From IMG/VR virus record IMGVR_UViG_3300030060_001372, positions 1 to 33,180 of that record: a stretch of DNA of 33,180 bases; one strand, given 5' to 3'. How positions within the stretch are numbered: the stretch's first letter is position 1; the number at the start of each line of letters is the position of its first letter. The notes under the pieces are model-generated. The model worked only from the letters and a program-made list of their open reading frames with translations, ran no database searches and was not told the DNA's origin. Origin of the DNA: a virus. Position numbers and translations under genes: made by a program. Shown here piece after piece: positions 15,190 through 33,180 of the stretch.

Positions 15190-15324
15190 TTAATTATGTG
15201 AATTGTGATAATTATTTATTAGTTTCTGTAGGTAATTACATACAGAGTTAAGTACAAAGACTATGAATAAACAGTAGCCAATGAAACCAGATAAAATAGC
15301 GAGAAATAGTATTGCTTCAGTCAT
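15190..15324 (-). CDS. 44-aa membrane protein
   Basis: Minus-strand ORF from ATG 15324 to TAA 15190-15192. It begins MTEAILFLAILSGFIGYCLF and continues IVFVLNSVCNYLQ, a ~24-residue transmembrane helix followed by a polar Asn/His/Lys tail. GGAGG lies eight bases before the ATG. It sits between the structured island and the DUF932 promoter, where superinfection-exclusion or host-takeover genes are often found, but no function can be read from the sequence. Confidence 0.6.
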   Translation of the reverse strand: MTEAILFLAILSGFIGYCLFIVFVLNSVCNYLQKLINNYHNSHN

Positions 15325-15528
15325 TGTTTTGCCTCCATAAAAATGATTTGAAACCGTCCAGCGCAAAGCTGGCGATTGTCACTTTACCTAACTGGCCCGG
15401 GTAGACGGCGAGGTTTTTGGTAGCCAAGCGGATGCATTGCATGCATTTCTTGGCTACCAAGGGAGAAACCTATCCAGTTGAAAGGGGGTTATGATCCCCT
15501 GCCCATCCGGGCAGGGGATACGCCTCCG
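15325..15528. other. Gene-free structured stretch beside the 150-aa gene
   Basis: I see no coding frame here. It contains CCAGC-GCAAA-GCTGG (15359-15373), the nested repeat at 15390-15479 and most of the tandem hairpins at 15494-15541, and is more GC-rich than its surroundings. Confidence 0.6.
15390..15479. repeat. Nested inverted repeat with perfect 12-bp core
   Basis: TTGGTAGCCAAG (15417-15428) pairs perfectly with CTTGGCTACCAA (15449-15460). Outside it GGTTT (15412-15416) pairs with AAACC (15466-15470) and AACTGG (15390-15395) with CCAGTT (15474-15479). The 20-base loop contains ATGCAT twice, three bases apart. The order of matched pairs is collinear, as in a folded RNA or cruciform. No T run follows on either strand except TTTTT inside the left arm. 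Confidence 0.8.
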
Positions 15529-15565
15529 TTAGGAGGCGTATTTCTTGCGTAGCTCTTCGCTACGC
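15494..15565 (-). terminator. Three abutting hairpins around a stop codon
   Basis: ATCCCCTGCCC-ATCC-GGGCAGGGGAT (11-bp stem, 15494-15519) abuts ATACGCCTCC-GTTA-GGAGGCGTAT (10-bp stem, 15518-15541), whose loop holds the leftward gene's TAA; then GCGTAGC-TCTTC-GCTACGC (15547-15565) lies within the coding end. These would strongly stall or protect the leftward transcript. There is no clean T run, so a processing, stability or Rho-independent role is uncertain. Confidence 0.6.
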
Positions 15566-15981
15566 TTCGCTGGGACAGCGCCTTTCGGCTTGTCCTTCGC
15601 GAGGAATGTATCACCAGTGCAGGTCTTGTAAGCTGCTTTCATCTGTGTAACAAAGTTTTGAAGCATCTCAATCTCAAGATCCATGTTCGTGATACGCTCA
15701 TCGATTCTATCGAGTGCGATATCATCGTAGTGTAGCGCACCACGAACGGCACCGTATTTGCGACAAACGTAGAGAGTGTTTTCTCCGTTAGTTTCGTCGG
15801 CACCCGCAATGGTCGTCGCATCCTCGTGAAGATCCACCTTATCGCTCTCCTTTTGGCCGATGAGCCACTCGGATTGCTCGACGCACTTGCGAATGATATT
15901 CTTTGTGAGATAGATAGATCCTTTGTGGGAATCTGGAAAGATGGCGCTAAAGCCTTGAGAGAAGTGATTTGTGTTGCTCAT
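15529..15981 (-). CDS. 150-aa protein of the structured island, unknown
   Basis: 150 aa, ATG 15981 preceded by AGGAGG. The sequence has a mixed N-terminal half (FSAIFPDSHKGSIYLTKNII, DLHEDATTIAGADETNGENT), then VCRKYGAVRGALHYDDI, a long probable coiled coil (DERITNMDLEIEMLQNFVTQ) and a basic Lys/Arg/Ala tail. It is more GC-rich than other genes (35 of 60 in the block at 15541, against 22-24 of 60 in sampled structural genes), suggesting a different origin or selection. Hairpins flank it on both sides. Being the first leftward gene it is probably expressed early. I do not recognise a family. Confidence 0.7.
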   Translation of the reverse strand: MSNTNHFSQGFSAIFPDSHKGSIYLTKNIIRKCVEQSEWLIGQKESDKVDLHEDATTIAGADETNGENTLYVCRKYGAVRGALHYDDIALDRIDERITNMDLEIEMLQNFVTQMKAAYKTCTGDTFLAKDKPKGAVPAKRSEELRKKYAS

Positions 15982-16059
15982 AGTAACCTCCTGTTGAGCT
16001 AATGTGCAGGGAAAACCCCCTGCGGTAAGATAGGCAAAGGCTGTGCCGAGGACTGTCGC

Positions 16060-16111
16060 TCAACCCCCAACCCGGTCGGGCAAAGCCCGAGTGGTGCGGG
16101 CGGGGGGTTGA
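16060..16111. repeat. Three-level nested hairpin
   Basis: TCAACCCCC (16060-16068) pairs with GGGGGTTGA (16103-16111); inside, CCCG (16071-16074) with CGGG (16097-16100); innermost TCGGGC-AAA-GCCCGA (16076-16090). Confidence 0.75.
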
Positions 16112-16129
16112 ACAGCGCATAATATAAGC

Positions 16130-16168
16130 GGCGTGAGTTTGCCTCGCATTACAGCGAGGCGACACGCC
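16130..16168. repeat. Two-level nested hairpin
   Basis: GGCGTG (16130-16135) pairs with CACGCC (16163-16168) and encloses GCCTCGC-ATTACA-GCGAGGC (16141-16160, 7-bp perfect stem). Confidence 0.75.
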
Positions 16169-16264
16169 ACAATAACGCGCTGGTGCGACAGGCAGCGGTG
16201 CAGCATGCAGACTATCCGCAGGGGGGAGGCCCAAGCATTCGATCAGCAGGGAAGGTGGATATGA

Positions 16265-16365
16265 CAACGCAAAGCACGGAGCGAAAGGGTTTAGTGACAG
16301 CTTTTCGGATTGTCGCAAACCTGTGAGTGCTTGTGAGAATATCTTTCGCTCCTCTTTGTGCGTTG
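16265..16365. repeat. Long stem structure ending at the late promoter
   Basis: GGAGCGAAAG (16278-16287) pairs perfectly with CTTTCGCTCC (16343-16352). Outside it AAAG pairs with CTTT and CAACGC (16265-16270) with GCGTTG (16360-16365). Inside, GGTTT (16288-16292) pairs with AAACC (16317-16321) and GACA with TGTC. The outer arm overlaps the TTGACA element. Confidence 0.7.
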
Positions 16366-16392
16366 ACAAGCCGTGACTCAGAGTGCTAAAAG
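16363..16392 (+). promoter_or_regulatory. Main rightward (late) promoter
   Basis: Consensus -35 TTGACA (16363-16368), 18-base spacer, TAAAAG (16387-16392) with an extended TGC just before it. It faces the small terminase gene and is the best sigma70-type promoter seen in the window. Confidence 0.65.
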
Positions 16393-16411
16393 GGGGGGGA
16401 TATGGGGGGGG
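16392..16411 (+). other. Twin G8 tracts (G8-ATAT-G8)
   Basis: Eight G at 16392-16399, ATAT, eight G at 16404-16411, just downstream of the promoter and before the terS ribosome site. Striking in a genome of about 40% GC. Confidence 0.85.
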
Positions 16412-16433
16412 TTCACATTAGAGGATGTCATTG

Positions 16434-16802
16434 ATGAAGGTGCAGACGCTAACCAGCAAACAAGAGCGGCTTGTTGATACCCTCGTAGCAAAAGGATGTA
16501 GCATCAAAGATGCCGCTCATGAAGCTGGTTATGCTTCGGGAGAAGCAGGGAGAGTCACGGCTAGTAAGGCTTTGCGGCTACCGCATGTGCAATCGTATAT
16601 GATGCAACGTGTGTCAGAGACTATGGGTGTTAACGCTACGATTGCTGCTTCACGGTTAGTGAAGCTCGCTCAAGGAGCCAAGTCAGAGTATGTTCAGTTG
16701 GAAGCGAGCAAGGATATACTAGACCGTGCTGGCTTCAAGGCTCCAGAGCGACACATGCACCTACATGCTGGCGACATTAGCGTCAACATCGATCTTAGCT
16801 AG
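16434..16802 (+). CDS. terS: Terminase small subunit
   Basis: 122 aa from ATG 16434, chosen because GAGG sits nine bases upstream; the in-frame ATG at 16425 overlaps that site. The layout is typical of small terminases: LTSKQERLVDTLVAKGCSIK, DAAHEAGYAS (helix-turn-helix), SKALRLPHVQSYM, an amphipathic oligomerisation helix, then LEASKDILDRAGFKAPERH and an acidic/hydrophobic tail. It recognises phage DNA for packaging and feeds it to the large subunit encoded 3 kb downstream. The separation by peptidase and small ORFs is unusual. Confidence 0.8.
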   Translation: MKVQTLTSKQERLVDTLVAKGCSIKDAAHEAGYASGEAGRVTASKALRLPHVQSYMMQRVSETMGVNATIAASRLVKLAQGAKSEYVQLEASKDILDRAGFKAPERHMHLHAGDISVNIDLS

Positions 16803-16892: not shown

Positions 16893-17387
16893 ATGCGGAT
16901 ATTAATTATATTATTATTGTTTCCTTTTGCTGTTTCTGCTTCTTGTTTTGATGAGTTGCGGTCTTTGGGGTGGGTTGTTAAAGCTGAAAGATCTCCTGAA
17001 GGTTTTTGCAGCATTAAGAATCCTGTTCGTCTTTATAAGACTGACACAACAATATTTAGTCCATCTGTATTATTATCTTGTTCGACAGCAAAAGATGTGG
17101 GGATGTGGGCAAAAGAAATTTCTGCCAAAAGAGTTGATAATGTAGGTGGTTATGTTTGCCGTAATCAACGTAATAGTATATTTCCTAGTCAGCATAGTTT
17201 TGGCAAAGCTATAGATATTGTAGCGATTGATGGCATACCAATATCTCAAAAGTGGCAATCTGCTTATAAAGCAGGTTGTAAATTTTTTAACACGGTATTA
17301 ACTCCAAAGCATGATGCCTTGCATCAAAATCATTTGCATATGGATAATGGTTATGGATATAGTTGCATATTTGATATTGTGCGTTGA
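16893..17387 (+). CDS. Exported extensin-like (M15-type) peptidase
   Basis: 164 aa. Residues 1-16 (MRILIILLLFPFAVSA) form a signal peptide. The mature part carries the Extensin-like C-terminal family pattern (PF06904): VCRNQRNSIFPSQHSFGKAI with His101 and Asp108, then FFNTVLTPKHDALHQNHLHM with His144, His147 and His149, which would bind zinc as in D-Ala-D-Ala peptidases. Cysteines at 18, 39, 63, 89, 129 and 158 could pair in the periplasm. It is likely to act on peptidoglycan peptides. It is separate from the lysis cassette and is a second wall-directed peptidase. Confidence 0.8.
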   Translation: MRILIILLLFPFAVSASCFDELRSLGWVVKAERSPEGFCSIKNPVRLYKTDTTIFSPSVLLSCSTAKDVGMWAKEISAKRVDNVGGYVCRNQRNSIFPSQHSFGKAIDIVAIDGIPISQKWQSAYKAGCKFFNTVLTPKHDALHQNHLHMDNGYGYSCIFDIVR

Positions 17388-17418: not shown

Positions 17419-18288
17419 ATGATTAATCCGTTATCATTTGAAGCAATGTTAAAAGATATGCCATTGCATCAAGCCTTTTACATACGAGGCGTAATAAATT
17501 CTTTGATTCCAGAATTTATGGATGCTGGTGATAGAGTTATTTCCGAACAAAATATTTCTGGTGAAACTATTGAGTTAATGAGGGGCATGGTCAATGATCT
17601 TGTTCCTAATGCTAATGAATTGCCTAATGGTTTTGTAGGCACGTTTGATTATGAAGATATAAATAAAAAATATGGTTTAAGTAATTTAATGCGGCGTGAA
17701 GGTTTTGATGTTGAGAATTTTGAAGAGGATATTAAAACTAGTTTAGGAACATTTGGTGTTTACAAGGAAAACGAAAAATTAGTTATTAAGGATACTTATG
17801 ATTTCCCTCAGATTGGAGAGTGGAAAGAGTATTCTGATTTAAAAACATTCATGGATTATTATGATGCTGCACGTAAAGATTCTGGTAAGACAGATTACTT
17901 TGCTGCTCGTTTTATTGGCGAACGTATAATGAATGATGGCATGAGTAATAACTTAGCCATACGTATTGAGTTGCCTGATAATGAGCAAGTAGTTGATATG
18001 GATTATGATGATCCATTAGATCCTGAAGCTGAAACATTTGTATTTGAAGGGCCAATGACTAACAAGCGTAAAACAATGTGGGATAAATTTAGTAGCATGT
18101 TTGTTTCAGAAGCCAAAGCAGGTCAGGTTGATAATTTTGTACCGCTTGGTTTGTCTCCACAACAAACAAGAGATTTTTATGAAAATTATACCAAACAATT
18201 AACTAGAGATGGCAAAGCTGTACCAGCAATGAGTTCTGCACAGATACCTTTGTCTGATGATACTGATACAAGTTTTTTGGATAATTAA
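17419..18288 (+). CDS. Large unknown protein near terminase
   Basis: 289 aa, acidic, without a clear signal or membrane segment. The first part, FEAMLKDMPLHQAFYIRGVI and IPEFMDAGDRVISEQNISGE, is helical; a middle segment (EWKEYSDLKTFMDYYDAARK, DYFAARFIGERIMNDG) and a flexible acidic end follow. Its stop overlaps the next start (TAATG). The location before terminase and next to small structural-like ORFs suggests a virion or packaging-related product, but I do not recognise a family. Confidence 0.65.
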   Translation: MINPLSFEAMLKDMPLHQAFYIRGVINSLIPEFMDAGDRVISEQNISGETIELMRGMVNDLVPNANELPNGFVGTFDYEDINKKYGLSNLMRREGFDVENFEEDIKTSLGTFGVYKENEKLVIKDTYDFPQIGEWKEYSDLKTFMDYYDAARKDSGKTDYFAARFIGERIMNDGMSNNLAIRIELPDNEQVVDMDYDDPLDPEAETFVFEGPMTNKRKTMWDKFSSMFVSEAKAGQVDNFVPLGLSPQQTRDFYENYTKQLTRDGKAVPAMSSAQIPLSDDTDTSFLDN

Positions 18289-18593
18289 TGGCAAAGACAC
18301 CAGCATGGCAACGCAAAGAAGGCAAGAATCCAGCAGGTGGACTCAACGCCAGAGGTCGCGCCTCCTACAAAGAAGGAACCCTCAAGCCGCCAGTAAAGTC
18401 AGGAGACAACCCAAGAAGAGCCAGCTTTCTATCAAGGATGGCAGGCAATAGTGGGCCAGAACGTGATTCAAAAGGCAGACCTACAAGATTGTTATTATCC
18501 CTTCGAGCGTGGGGTGCATCTTCAAAAGCTGATGCTAGAGCCAAAGCAAGGGCTATTAGTAAACGAAACAAAGCAAAGAAAGCGAGAGCATAG
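18288..18593 (+). CDS. DUF6321-like basic protein
   Basis: 101 aa, strongly basic. KTPAWQRKEGKNPAGGLNAR, YKEGTLKPPVKSGDNPRRAS and RPTRLLLSLRAWGASSKADA match the small phage family annotated DUF6321, often found near terminase or DNA-modifying genes. It has no known enzymatic role; the charge suggests nucleic-acid binding. It overlaps both neighbours (TAATG at 18286, TAGTG at 18591). Confidence 0.75.
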   Translation: MAKTPAWQRKEGKNPAGGLNARGRASYKEGTLKPPVKSGDNPRRASFLSRMAGNSGPERDSKGRPTRLLLSLRAWGASSKADARAKARAISKRNKAKKARA

Positions 18594-28947: not shown

Positions 28948-29451
28948 ATGGCACTTGAATGGTTAGCATTTGCAGCAATGGGAATGGGTACAGCATTACA
29001 AATTACTGGATATGATCAAGCTGCACGCGCAGAAAAAATTAAACAGGATGAAATAGCAAGGCAGTCACGTGATAATAAACTTGCTATACAGCTACAGGCT
29101 GAACGTGATGCTACTGCACGATCACAAGCATATTCAGATTTTTTAAAAAATTCATCTGCTATTACTGGATATAATAGACGAGGTGCAGATCGATCTCTTA
29201 TGGCTATACAGGAAGCAGCAAAACAAAAAACAACAGACGAATTGAAGGCTATACAAGTGCAAAGTTTATTTTCAATGGGAAGAGCAGAAAGACGCGCACA
29301 GTTTGCAGAATTTGGAGGAGAGCAAGCTATGCAGCTATCTGTTTTACAATCATTTTCTGCAATTACAGATATGGGAATGAAAGCATATCAAGTTAGTGGT
29401 GGTGGTGGTGGTTCTAAACCTTCGCCAACTATGGTTCCAGAAGGAATGTAG
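28948..29451 (+). CDS. Internal virion protein, gp14-like
   Basis: 167 aa, close to T7 gp14 (196). A hydrophobic start (LEWLAFAAMGMGTALQITGY) is followed by a long Ala/Gln/Arg helical part and a Gly-rich end (SGGGGGSKPSPT). The order nozzle, gp14, gp15, gp16 is kept. It is ejected into the host envelope with the other two. AGGAGATAT precedes the ATG. Confidence 0.75.
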   Translation: MALEWLAFAAMGMGTALQITGYDQAARAEKIKQDEIARQSRDNKLAIQLQAERDATARSQAYSDFLKNSSAITGYNRRGADRSLMAIQEAAKQKTTDELKAIQVQSLFSMGRAERRAQFAEFGGEQAMQLSVLQSFSAITDMGMKAYQVSGGGGGSKPSPTMVPEGM

Positions 29452-31624: not shown

Positions 31625-33180
31625 ATGGTTGATATAAACAGACAAGATTTTTTTATTCCAATACCAGCAGCTATATCTGATGACACTCCTCCATCATGGT
31701 ATGAAGGTTGGAAAGCAAATGTTGCGTATAACAACATGCCATTGGTTGAATCAATACAGGAACAAATAGAGTTTGCAAATGAAGGTTATGATTATAATTT
31801 TAATGTAGCAGAGAACATTTCTGAAGATGTGCTGCCATATTATGATGATTTAGTAAAAGCTAAAAATGAACGTCATCTTAGATACTTAGAAGCAAGAGCA
31901 AGGGAAGCAATAGAACGTAGGCGTATAGCGTCTAATGCTCCCTTAACAGCACAACTTGCAGGTGGTTTTACCGATCCATTAGCTGTAACAGCATTTATTC
32001 CCGGCCTTAACTTTGTAAAATTAGGTAAAACATTTACACAAGCAGTAGGTCGTGGTGCTATTGCAGGTCTTGGTTATGGTGTTGCATCTGAGGCTAGGCG
32101 TGCGCCGTTTGCTGTAGCTGATGAACCGGGCGAAGCAGTTGCCAATGTTGCAGCATCTACAATATTCTCAGCAGGTTTTGGTGGTGTATTAAAAGGTGCT
32201 GGATATGCTGGGCCGTTTCTTTCTAGCTCTGCAAGCAAGGTAAATAAGCTATATCAGGGTAAAAGTTTTAAGCATGTGTTTGGTAAAACTGATGAAGTTG
32301 CTAATCTAGATGAAGCATATACACCTGCTGAAGGTGGTAATTTAGATTTAGTTCAAACAAATATTTTAGGTTCTTCTACAAATAGAGTAATGGGTAATAA
32401 AAAATATTCTGAAAAAATAAAAAACTACTTTGCATTGCTTGCTTACAATGGATCTGTGTCTACACAAGGTGCTAGACGAGGATATGGTTTTCAATCTGTT
32501 TCTCAAGAGTCAGTTACATATCAAGGTTTATTTGAAGGCTTACAGCGTAAGATGCTTGACTTGCATTCTTTGGAAGTAAGAGGAATTAAAAAAGCATCTA
32601 GGGTAGCAACTGTTCCTTTGCCTTTTACAGGTTTTGATGATTGGGCTAGCGATACAATAAGACGTTATATCTTACGTAGTTCACCTGATCCACGATTACA
32701 AAAAATTGGTAATGATGGCATTAGCGACCAGCAAAAAGAAGCTGGTGTTTTGATGAGTGAATTATTTAAAGGTTTTCGTGATGATATTCATTATTATCAA
32801 ATGAGAACAGATGACAAACTTTTAGCATACATTACAAAACTTCAAAATGAAGTTGATACAGTAACTAATAAATTAGTAAAATTAGAAGCTGACATAAATA
32901 AAATGCCTAATAAAGCTGGTACTAAAAAACAAATAGATTTTTTAAAAACTTTAGAAGATCGACAAGCTGAGTTAAGAGCAAGAATTACTGACTATGAAGG
33001 TAAATTAGGTAAATTTACTAGAGAAGATTACACCTTTCCTATTTTTTATAACAAAGAATTATTGTCTACAAGTGATGAAGCAAGACAAACTTTAACAAGG
33101 ATATTTAGTGAAGATTATGAAGCACAACGATTAGCTGCTGGCAAAGATACATTTGGTACATTTGAAGATGCTGAAAAAAC
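31625..33180 (+). CDS. Internal virion protein, gp16-like, N-terminal part (3' end cut by window)
   Basis: Open from ATG 31625 to the window end (518 codons), then continuing at base 1. The first residues, MVDINRQDFFIPIPAAISDD, lack the transglycosylase domain of T7 gp16. A hydrophobic Gly/Ala segment (residues ~115-200, e.g. FTDPLAVTAFIPGLNFVKLG, GAIAGLGYGVASEA, AASTIFSAGFGGVLKGAGYA) could insert in membranes. The last 136 complete codons are the right copy of the end overlap. Ejected protein role is inferred from order and total size (about 1,075 aa). Confidence 0.8.
   Translation, partial: MVDINRQDFFIPIPAAISDDTPPSWYEGWKANVAYNNMPLVESIQEQIEFANEGYDYNFNVAENISEDVLPYYDDLVKAKNERHLRYLEARAREAIERRRIASNAPLTAQLAGGFTDPLAVTAFIPGLNFVKLGKTFTQAVGRGAIAGLGYGVASEARRAPFAVADEPGEAVANVAASTIFSAGFGGVLKGAGYAGPFLSSSASKVNKLYQGKSFKHVFGKTDEVANLDEAYTPAEGGNLDLVQTNILGSSTNRVMGNKKYSEKIKNYFALLAYNGSVSTQGARRGYGFQSVSQESVTYQGLFEGLQRKMLDLHSLEVRGIKKASRVATVPLPFTGFDDWASDTIRRYILRSSPDPRLQKIGNDGISDQQKEAGVLMSELFKGFRDDIHYYQMRTDDKLLAYITKLQNEVDTVTNKLVKLEADINKMPNKAGTKKQIDFLKTLEDRQAELRARITDYEGKLGKFTREDYTFPIFYNKELLSTSDEARQTLTRIFSEDYEAQRLAAGKDTFGTFEDAEK
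32771..33180. repeat. Right copy of a divergent end overlap
   Basis: Homologous to bases 1-410 without gaps. Most of the 32 mismatches are transitions, many at third codon positions. This copy reads into the gene from its true start, whereas the left copy reads on to its stop. Confidence 0.95.

Follow-up and report, generated by a model that had tools for sequence, protein, structure and literature searches.

Analysis of the DNA upstream of the small terminase gene terS showed that a long branched hairpin, H1, is a conserved structured element in which base changes are compensated across relatives of the phage. H1 lies within a hairpin island at positions 15340–16430 of the 33180-base virus record IMGVR_UViG_3300030060_001372, which was analysed at its full length and is referred to here as the window. 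The island itself is real. It consists of four parts: the hairpins at the 3′ end of a leftward gene, p150; p150; H1; and TTGACA with a twin G-run box before terS (Table 1). As judged by comparison with relatives, it is a conserved region dividing two gene arms, and its place is kept across the phage family.

Table 1. Positions of the features of the island and of terS in the window.
Feature	Position	Strand	Remarks and basis
Hairpin TTGGTAGCCAAG...CTTGGCTACCAA	15418..15460	none	Left of p150; without a T run on either strand; sequence and fold
11-bp GC hairpin	15494..15519	−	Just past the p150 stop; fold
10-bp hairpin ATACGCCTCC-GTTA-GGAGGCGTAT	15518..15541	−	p150 stop codon in the loop; sequence and fold
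p150	15529..15981	−	First leftward gene, 150 aa; AGGAGG ribosome-binding site
H1, long branched covarying hairpin	15986..16256	none assigned	Closing stem includes the p150 ribosome-binding site; folds and covariation
H1 inner helix, left arm CCCCCTGCGG	16016..16025	none	Helix 3 of alignment A2
H1 tip arm A	16061..16110	none	Near variant AACCCGG...GCGGGCG of the internal-loop motif; fold
H1 tip arm B	16113..16182	none	Absent from the closest relatives, L004 and L005
H1 inner helix, right arm CCGCAGGGGG	16216..16225	none	Helix 3 of alignment A2
H2, second, weaker hairpin	16268..16360	none	Ends beside the −35 box; fold
TTGACA and AT-rich −10-like stretch	16363..16391	+	Promoter-like; before terS
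Twin G-run box GGGGGGGG-ATAT-GGGGGGGG	16392..16411	+	Box comparison
terS, small terminase subunit	16425..16802	+	First gene of the rightward arm; Pfam Terminase_2, E 1.5e-8; PHROG 2538

The island and its phage family

Profile searches identified a Head-tail_con portal, TerS, TerL, tail proteins, an Erf-like protein and a RecE-like exonuclease in the window. The best annotated relative was Pelagibacter phage EXVC031P Hodr (OQ414635.1), with identities of 69% in TerL and 61% in TerS, and Hodr was the sole match when the phage collection was searched with TerS. As this best annotated relative is a Pelagibacter phage, the family is probably marine. No polymerase or helicase family was matched, and no initiator gene recognised, among the 30 open reading frames searched against PHROGs (65 are listed in the window). 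A search of the window for tRNA and tmRNA gave no result. The island matched no phage in a nucleotide search, and a further DNA search returned one short match, outside the island.

For comparison, a starting set was assembled from Hodr and 127 TerS locus records that extend 500 nt or more upstream; the records include the window itself (L001) and several loci from one contig. A usable leftward open reading frame, defined as at least 105 aa with ATG and a ribosome-binding motif within 1000 nt, was present in 108 loci, which gave 82 distinct intervals after removal of copies at 97% or above. The leftward frame belongs to the p150 family in at least 59 of these and is another frame in the remainder.

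The GC counts in the initial annotation proved exact (35/60 at 15541, 35/60 at 16081, 24/60 at 29041 and 22/60 at 31861), and overall GC content was 52.6% in the island and 38.8% in the window. Folding energies were compared with dinucleotide-shuffled controls. For 15982–16424 they were far below the controls on both strands (z = −8.2 on + and −8.4 on −), with none of 100 shuffles as low on either, and 15340–15560 gave z = −6.4 on + (0/200 shuffles as low). In a scan of the + strand in 330 segments of 200 nt, with a background mean z of −0.72 (sd 1.54), the three lowest values (−13.0, −7.9 and −7.1) all fell in the island. The island has 11 perfect stems of at least 5 bp; 28 other segments of its size averaged 9.5 and reached 18. 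The density of stems had been described as unlike any other part of the window; this is correct for long nested imperfect pairing and for strength of folding, where the island stands highest, but not for the number of short stems, which is ordinary. The signal of the island is thus long nested pairing. It is not one continuous structure, a possibility that was considered and rejected: two blocks, 15401–15600 and 15986–16256, flank p150.

Conservation of H1 and exchange of its tip

H1 homologues, folded on the first 280 nt of each interval, gave z below −3 in 77 of the 82 distinct intervals (median −7.4), compared with values near −1 in control regions of the relatives (−1.10 in mid gene, −0.76 at 700–900 nt away). 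The start of H1 was 0–9 nt from the leftward gene in 73/82, partly by construction, the folded stretch beginning there. At least three bases of the ribosome-binding site were paired in 67/81 sequences when the better of two fold lengths was taken; these intervals are highly paired throughout (~103 pairs per sequence), and the site does not clearly exceed that background. With a median z of −0.94 in 78 relatives, the second hairpin, H2, was rejected as a general feature.

Two-sided changes were examined in 162 related sequence pairs, 120 of them within three identity bands. At 60–80% identity, 1325 of 2190 such changes (60.5%) were Watson–Crick, where the base pairs are taken from one sequence per comparison, which favours those pairs somewhat; the corresponding values were 244/321 (76%) at 80–90% and 43/59 (73%) at 90–99%. 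When partners were slid by 1–3 columns, Watson–Crick combinations made up 23–27% in the 60–80% band, 24–32% in the 80–90% band and, with small counts, 17–46% at 90–99%. Within conserved helices at 60–80% identity, 354 compensated changes were found against 79 G-T, 44 A-C and 168 other; at 90–99% there were 18 against 7 G-T, 11 A-C and 14 other, so that the one-sided total was not exceeded. In a 13-sequence alignment (A2), 17 of 32 pairs carried a two-sided change, compared with 8.9 in shuffled alignments (44 cells compared with 15.0). In its helix 3, the inner helix of H1, 92.3% of cells were paired and three of the ten pairs showed two-sided changes. Alifold energies were ~5 sd or more below those of column-shuffled alignments in all ten groups, each of 2–12 sequences and with 12 column shuffles; one group gave −116.6 against −26.2 (sd 4.3).

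Compensating change is therefore strong among homologues, and neither an absence of covariation nor shuffled-like energy was found. The covariation also bears out the view in the initial annotation that terminators alone do not explain the island; on the same ground, a reading of the whole island as terminators was rejected. None of 4227 Rfam families matched anywhere in the window at the gathering cut-off, and when the island and Hodr were searched at E up to 10, all that appeared were unrelated families below threshold. The element was not described in titles and abstracts of open-licence literature on pelagiphage, Hodr, hairpin and terminase topics, among the matches listed.

Comparison of seven loci distinguished the behaviour of the tip from that of the stem. 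In the first backbone, comprising the window, L004 and L005, the left stem is 100%, the right part 98–100% and the p-protein 96–97% identical, and despite this near-identical backbone the tips are only 50–61% alike. In the second (L092 and L094) the left stem is 100%, the right part 96% and the p-protein 96% identical, and the tips are 53% alike; TerS of both is 84–86% identical to that of the window. Between the two backbones identity falls to 70% in the stem, 55–60% in the right part and 44–47% in the p-protein. Across them, though, tips match closely: L004 and L094 share 91% identity in this part, and L005 and L092 share 90%. The tip thus moves as one unit, and these alignments identify it as an exchanged cassette, with the lower stem staying with the locus. 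An acquired cassette had been among the meanings first proposed for the island; it applies to the H1 tip and not to the island as a whole, whose place is kept across the family.

Tip motifs were found in 19 contigs in three scans of the collection (13, 3 and 3). The tip lies 191–201 nt before the TTGACA box in 17 of these and 537 nt before it in L009; the L291 contig stops short of the box, and there the start of the leftward gene lies beside the stem. The tip was also considered as a cassette occurring elsewhere and this was rejected, as all 19 contigs carry it at the H1 locus. An internal-loop motif, AAC[ACT]C[GT][GA]...GCGGGCA, occurred in 7 of the 82 intervals including Hodr, at an offset of 76–82 nt and on the + strand only. 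Its flanks, read by eye, differ yet still pair.

We then considered which strand of H1 might act. The + strand folded better than the − strand relative to shuffles in 60 of 82 intervals (Wilcoxon p = 5e-7 for energy and 0.005 for z) and, relative to column-shuffled controls, in 10/10 alignment groups, by 0.2 to 5.3 sd. The window's own H1 showed no strand preference (z = −9.7 on +, −10.4 on −). The fold is thus not favoured on the coding strand of p150, the family preferring + and the window being neutral. Single mismatches in H1 comprised 93 G-T and 23 A-C, near the 2.5- to 4-fold ratio reckoned from base composition, and in conserved helices the G-T to A-C counts over the three identity bands were 79/44, 23/14 and 7/11. 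Strand-neutral pairs, the choice of which favours Watson–Crick, included 2984 Watson–Crick, 58 G-U and 72 A-C. C(GNA)G triloops, which are stable in DNA hairpins, were seen in 9 distinct contexts on the + strand and 12 on the − strand, where a shuffled set gave 0.6 for each; this apical-loop evidence is only suggestive as to strand. Because the thermodynamic and mismatch tests disagree, no strand is claimed for H1.

The twin G-run box and the p150 gene

The first G run of the box begins 28–32 nt after the first base of TTGAC(A), and the second follows after 1–11 nt. The two runs were equal in length in 151 of 157 distinct boxes (86 of 7/7, 51 of 6/6, 9 of 8/8 and 5 of 5/5), which come from related phages and are not independent; random pairing of runs gave 68.5 equal on average and at most 92 in 10000 permutations. 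A TerS-like frame lay within 900 nt downstream of 128 of the 157, and some of the 29 without TerS downstream are probably chance matches. The spacer was mirror-symmetric in 56/157 boxes, compared with 23 when shuffled, and runs of at least 7 permit GGGNGGG twice by sequence. This strict equality, for which no explanation readily offers itself, is sharp enough to be tested.

A DNA-pattern scan of virus contigs gave at least 74 new loci, with TerS as the next open reading frame in 50 of those listed. Thirteen of the 74 were on contigs already in the set, all with TerS, and 37 of the remaining 61 had TerS. Upstream of 45 later-locus boxes, the most structured 200-nt segment had a median z of −4.85, compared with −0.65 in downstream controls; this is the best of several segments set against single control segments, which favours the upstream side. 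Twin G runs are absent from Hodr and from five further TerS loci (L054, L065, L070, L075 and L079). Hodr otherwise has the same layout, with a leftward gene, an H1-like hairpin that shares the loop motif, then TTGACA and terS, but its leftward gene is not linked to the p150 family.

When the 82 intervals were scanned for promoters, the score cut-off was reached at the box in 68% and at any other place in at most 6%, the box being the scan anchor, so that its −35 is counted automatically. In the terS box the −10 matches weakly, at 3.5 of 6 positions compared with 2.9 in shuffles, and a −35/−10 spacing of 18 was best in 91 of 128. By sequence, and given its use as anchor, the box alone stands out clearly in the interval as promoter-like. 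The 82 intervals yielded no consensus promoter for the leftward gene, and no conserved + promoter was found left of H1 in 81 relatives. A + promoter-like match does occur at 15955–15984 in the window, such matches being present at chance number (12 found, 9.1 expected).

The p150 family, built by single linkage, consists of fast-changing open reading frames of 126–166 aa in 84 locus records. In an alignment of 59 representatives the other 58 were 12–97% identical to the protein of the window. The latter had no family at E 0.01 in Pfam, PHROGs or PADLOC, and its homologues among the 59 gave scattered weak matches, at most 5/59 to one model (PDC-S63, best E 0.0022). Likewise, no type III toxin–antitoxin toxin homologue was found for it in Pfam or PADLOC, the matches of the members being scattered and weak. 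A profile search of PDB sequences gave a best E of 0.099. AlphaFold predicted a helical hairpin (mean pLDDT 80.6), for which no PDB structure matched below E 0.001; T4 UvsY recurs among the weak structure matches, and was not counted as evidence.

Beyond the 3′ end of p150, the hairpin at 15494–15519 has no T run after it in the window, and its activity as a terminator there is uncertain. Several relatives have a canonical intrinsic terminator at the same place. In several of 14 sequences inspected the left block contains a GC stem with a T run after it on the − strand, terminator stems of relatives carry a UUCG-type loop in 12 distinct contexts, and the left block had z below −3 in 55% of 78 relatives (median −3.13). 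These terminator hairpins left of the leftward gene imply a short separate transcript, and p150 looks like a gene with its own short transcript.

Proposed function and alternatives

H1 is conserved; what H1 and the box do is a reasoned guess. We tentatively favour, at a little short of an even chance, a divergent control region in which p150 is controlled by H1, a leader RNA element, and terS has its late promoter in the box. We infer transcription of H1, control of p150 and promoter activity in the following form. H1 would be transcribed leftward as a ~270-nt 5′ leader of the p150 mRNA, and this short mRNA would end in the hairpins at 15494–15541. The H1 fold would put the ribosome-binding site in the closing stem, so that p150 synthesis would require opening, cleavage or binding of H1, and the tip would be an exchangeable specificity part. 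TTGACA, the weak −10 and the two equal G runs would form the promoter of the terS (late) operon. As H1 starts 0–9 nt from the gene, any leftward transcript from a promoter at the right would include it, and this forced inclusion is the main argument for a leader. The main arguments against are the family's + strand preference and the lack of a recognised leftward promoter. A leftward structured RNA or leader, also among the meanings first proposed, thus gains from the position of H1 at the gene (73/82) and from covariation, and loses by the family-wide + strand preference.

That preference would be better explained were H1 a rightward (+) non-coding RNA, for example antisense to the p150 ribosome-binding site; the exchangeable tip would then determine pairing specificity, much as in plasmid copy-control antisense RNAs. 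We give this a modest chance. The + strand folds better in 60/82 intervals and 10/10 groups, G-T outnumbers A-C in two of the three identity bands, tips are exchanged and stems are not, and a + promoter-like match, albeit of a kind found at chance number, is present at 15955–15984. Yet the 81 relatives have no conserved + promoter left of H1, A-C is as common as G-U in strand-neutral pairs (72 and 58), and the window's own H1 has no + preference. The near-pure Watson–Crick pairing with no wobble asymmetry in those pairs, even allowing that pair choice favours this, would instead suit H1 working as DNA and serving replication start, recombination or packaging in the form of a cruciform or single-strand hairpin, as would the enrichment of C(GNA)G triloops on both strands and the absence of a polymerase or helicase family among the 30 frames searched against PHROGs. 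An origin of replication, also among the meanings first proposed for the island, would be a role of this kind. We give H1 acting as DNA a small chance, given the family-wide thermodynamic preference for +, an internal-loop motif common to H1 and Hodr that suggests a folded single strand, and no initiator gene recognised among the 30 frames. Ordinary terminators with chance structure in a GC-rich patch would account for the terminator-like left block of several relatives and for the ordinary short-stem count, and may hold for the left block alone. For the island as a whole this is very improbable in view of the covariation and z of H1 (77/82 below −3) and an H1-like hairpin in Hodr as well (z = −5.3).

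The box might, rather than a promoter, be a packaging or genome-end signal (pac or cos), a further meaning among those first proposed, to which we assign a modest chance. It precedes a TerS frame in 128/157 cases, and contigs end 7–52 nt upstream of TerS in 5 of 80. In Staphylococcus phage 812, poly(G) tracts are reported to cluster at the genome end (PMC12886913). Both phages thus have clustered G tracts, but those of phage 812 are four tracts inside a terminal repeat, and the G-run box is two equal runs before terS. Against a packaging signal, TTGACA and the AT-rich stretch are kept at promoter spacing, the G runs are missing in Hodr and five other TerS loci, and 16 near-complete contigs end all around the genome, the nearest end being 205 nt upstream of TerS; contig ends do not decide the matter either way.

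In human mitochondrial CSB 2, transcription of a G tract is described as leading to a hybrid G-quadruplex R-loop and perhaps to a primer (PMC5027508). This behaviour suggests that the box might likewise act through a quadruplex or R-loop. Both have an interrupted G tract downstream of a promoter, and the box could form a hybrid quadruplex and R-loop; the box differs in belonging to a phage and in having two separate runs of matched length, with a spacer of 1–11 nt and the first run placed where transcription is expected to begin. Another study reported little hybrid quadruplex from two G tracts separated by a 6-nt spacer (PMC4066803), and this counts against such a role. A two-part switch, combining a modular H1 with swappable tip on the first leftward gene with a length-locked G-run quadruplex (DNA, or DNA and nascent RNA) acting as a replication-priming R-loop or packaged-end mark, we consider doubtful. 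Were it true, the runs would be kept equal (5/5 to 8/8) by their part in building the quadruplex; located where transcription starts, the R-loop would prime replication in phages with no recognised polymerase gene, or the quadruplex would mark the packaged genome end.

Structured 5′ leaders are known from bacterial and phage genes, among them riboswitches and leaders processed by RNase III, the lambda N leader being one example. With these H1 shares a long structure directly upstream of a gene and a ribosome-binding site in the closing stem; it differs in having no Rfam match, a tip exchanged as a cassette and the opposite strand preference in the family. GOLLD, ROOL and other large structured RNAs, some of them phage-borne, are likewise large, ornate and phage-linked, but H1 matches no Rfam family at gathering. 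The pelagiphage Polarivirus skadi is reported to have no DNA or RNA polymerase of its own and neither terminators nor riboswitches (PMC10504331). A glutamine riboswitch is reported for a marine methylophage (PMC9004378), so RNA control in such phages would have precedent. We place the island with a known kind, the structured phage control region; its exchanged tip and length-locked G runs were matched to nothing in the databases and open-licence literature searched. That tips are exchanged on divergent backbones suggests diversifying selection like that on immunity or incompatibility determinants. Phages of this kind are numerous in the virus-contig collection, yet Hodr stands alone in the phage collection by TerS. 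For such phages, a large covarying non-Rfam element beside terS would offer a handle on gene timing, replication start or packaging marks.

Genes around terS

The listed features lie on both sides of terS, the small terminase subunit gene that opens the rightward arm. Downstream, a short stretch was 80–83% identical in DNA to the Pelagibacter phages HTVC033P and Lederberg EXVC029P, and in Lederberg a putative peptidase is annotated near the matching stretch. On the leftward side, next to the 150-aa gene (p150), a small ORF fell below the size cut of the window's ORF listing and was read by eye; from the appearance of its sequence, the product looks like a membrane peptide.

Features on either side of terS
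Feature	Position	Strand	Remarks
44-aa ORF	15190-15324	-	GGAGG ribosome-binding site; between p150 and DUF932 gene
Twin G runs	16392-16411	+	Ahead of terS
Extensin-like peptidase domain	16893-17387	+	Pfam E 4e-22; between terS and terL
Stretch matching Pelagibacter phages	18280-18370		Start of ORF that matches phrog_4689

The window carries recombination genes of Erf-like and RecE-like type. A PHROGs search of 30 of the 65 listed ORFs returned no match to DNA polymerase, helicase or primase families.

Twin G runs in relatives

Relatives of the TerS protein were also found on contigs binned from metagenomes as Gammaproteobacteria, Euryarchaeota and Rhodobiaceae (loci L168–L172). With TerS relatives in such bins, the host labels of these contigs are doubtful. 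Of these five loci, L168, L169 and L170 carried twin G runs upstream of TerS, with a longer spacer in L170, while L171 and L172 were without them.

Among distinct boxes from other loci, the two G runs were of the same length in 151 of 157, though that length varied between boxes, from 5 to 8. None of the mechanisms considered would force strict equality.

Contig ends upstream of TerS

Five of 80 contigs ended 7–52 nt upstream of TerS, and across these loci ends were commoner there than in most adjacent 100-nt bins. They may reflect contigs that broke at the G runs during assembly, or real ends of the DNA.
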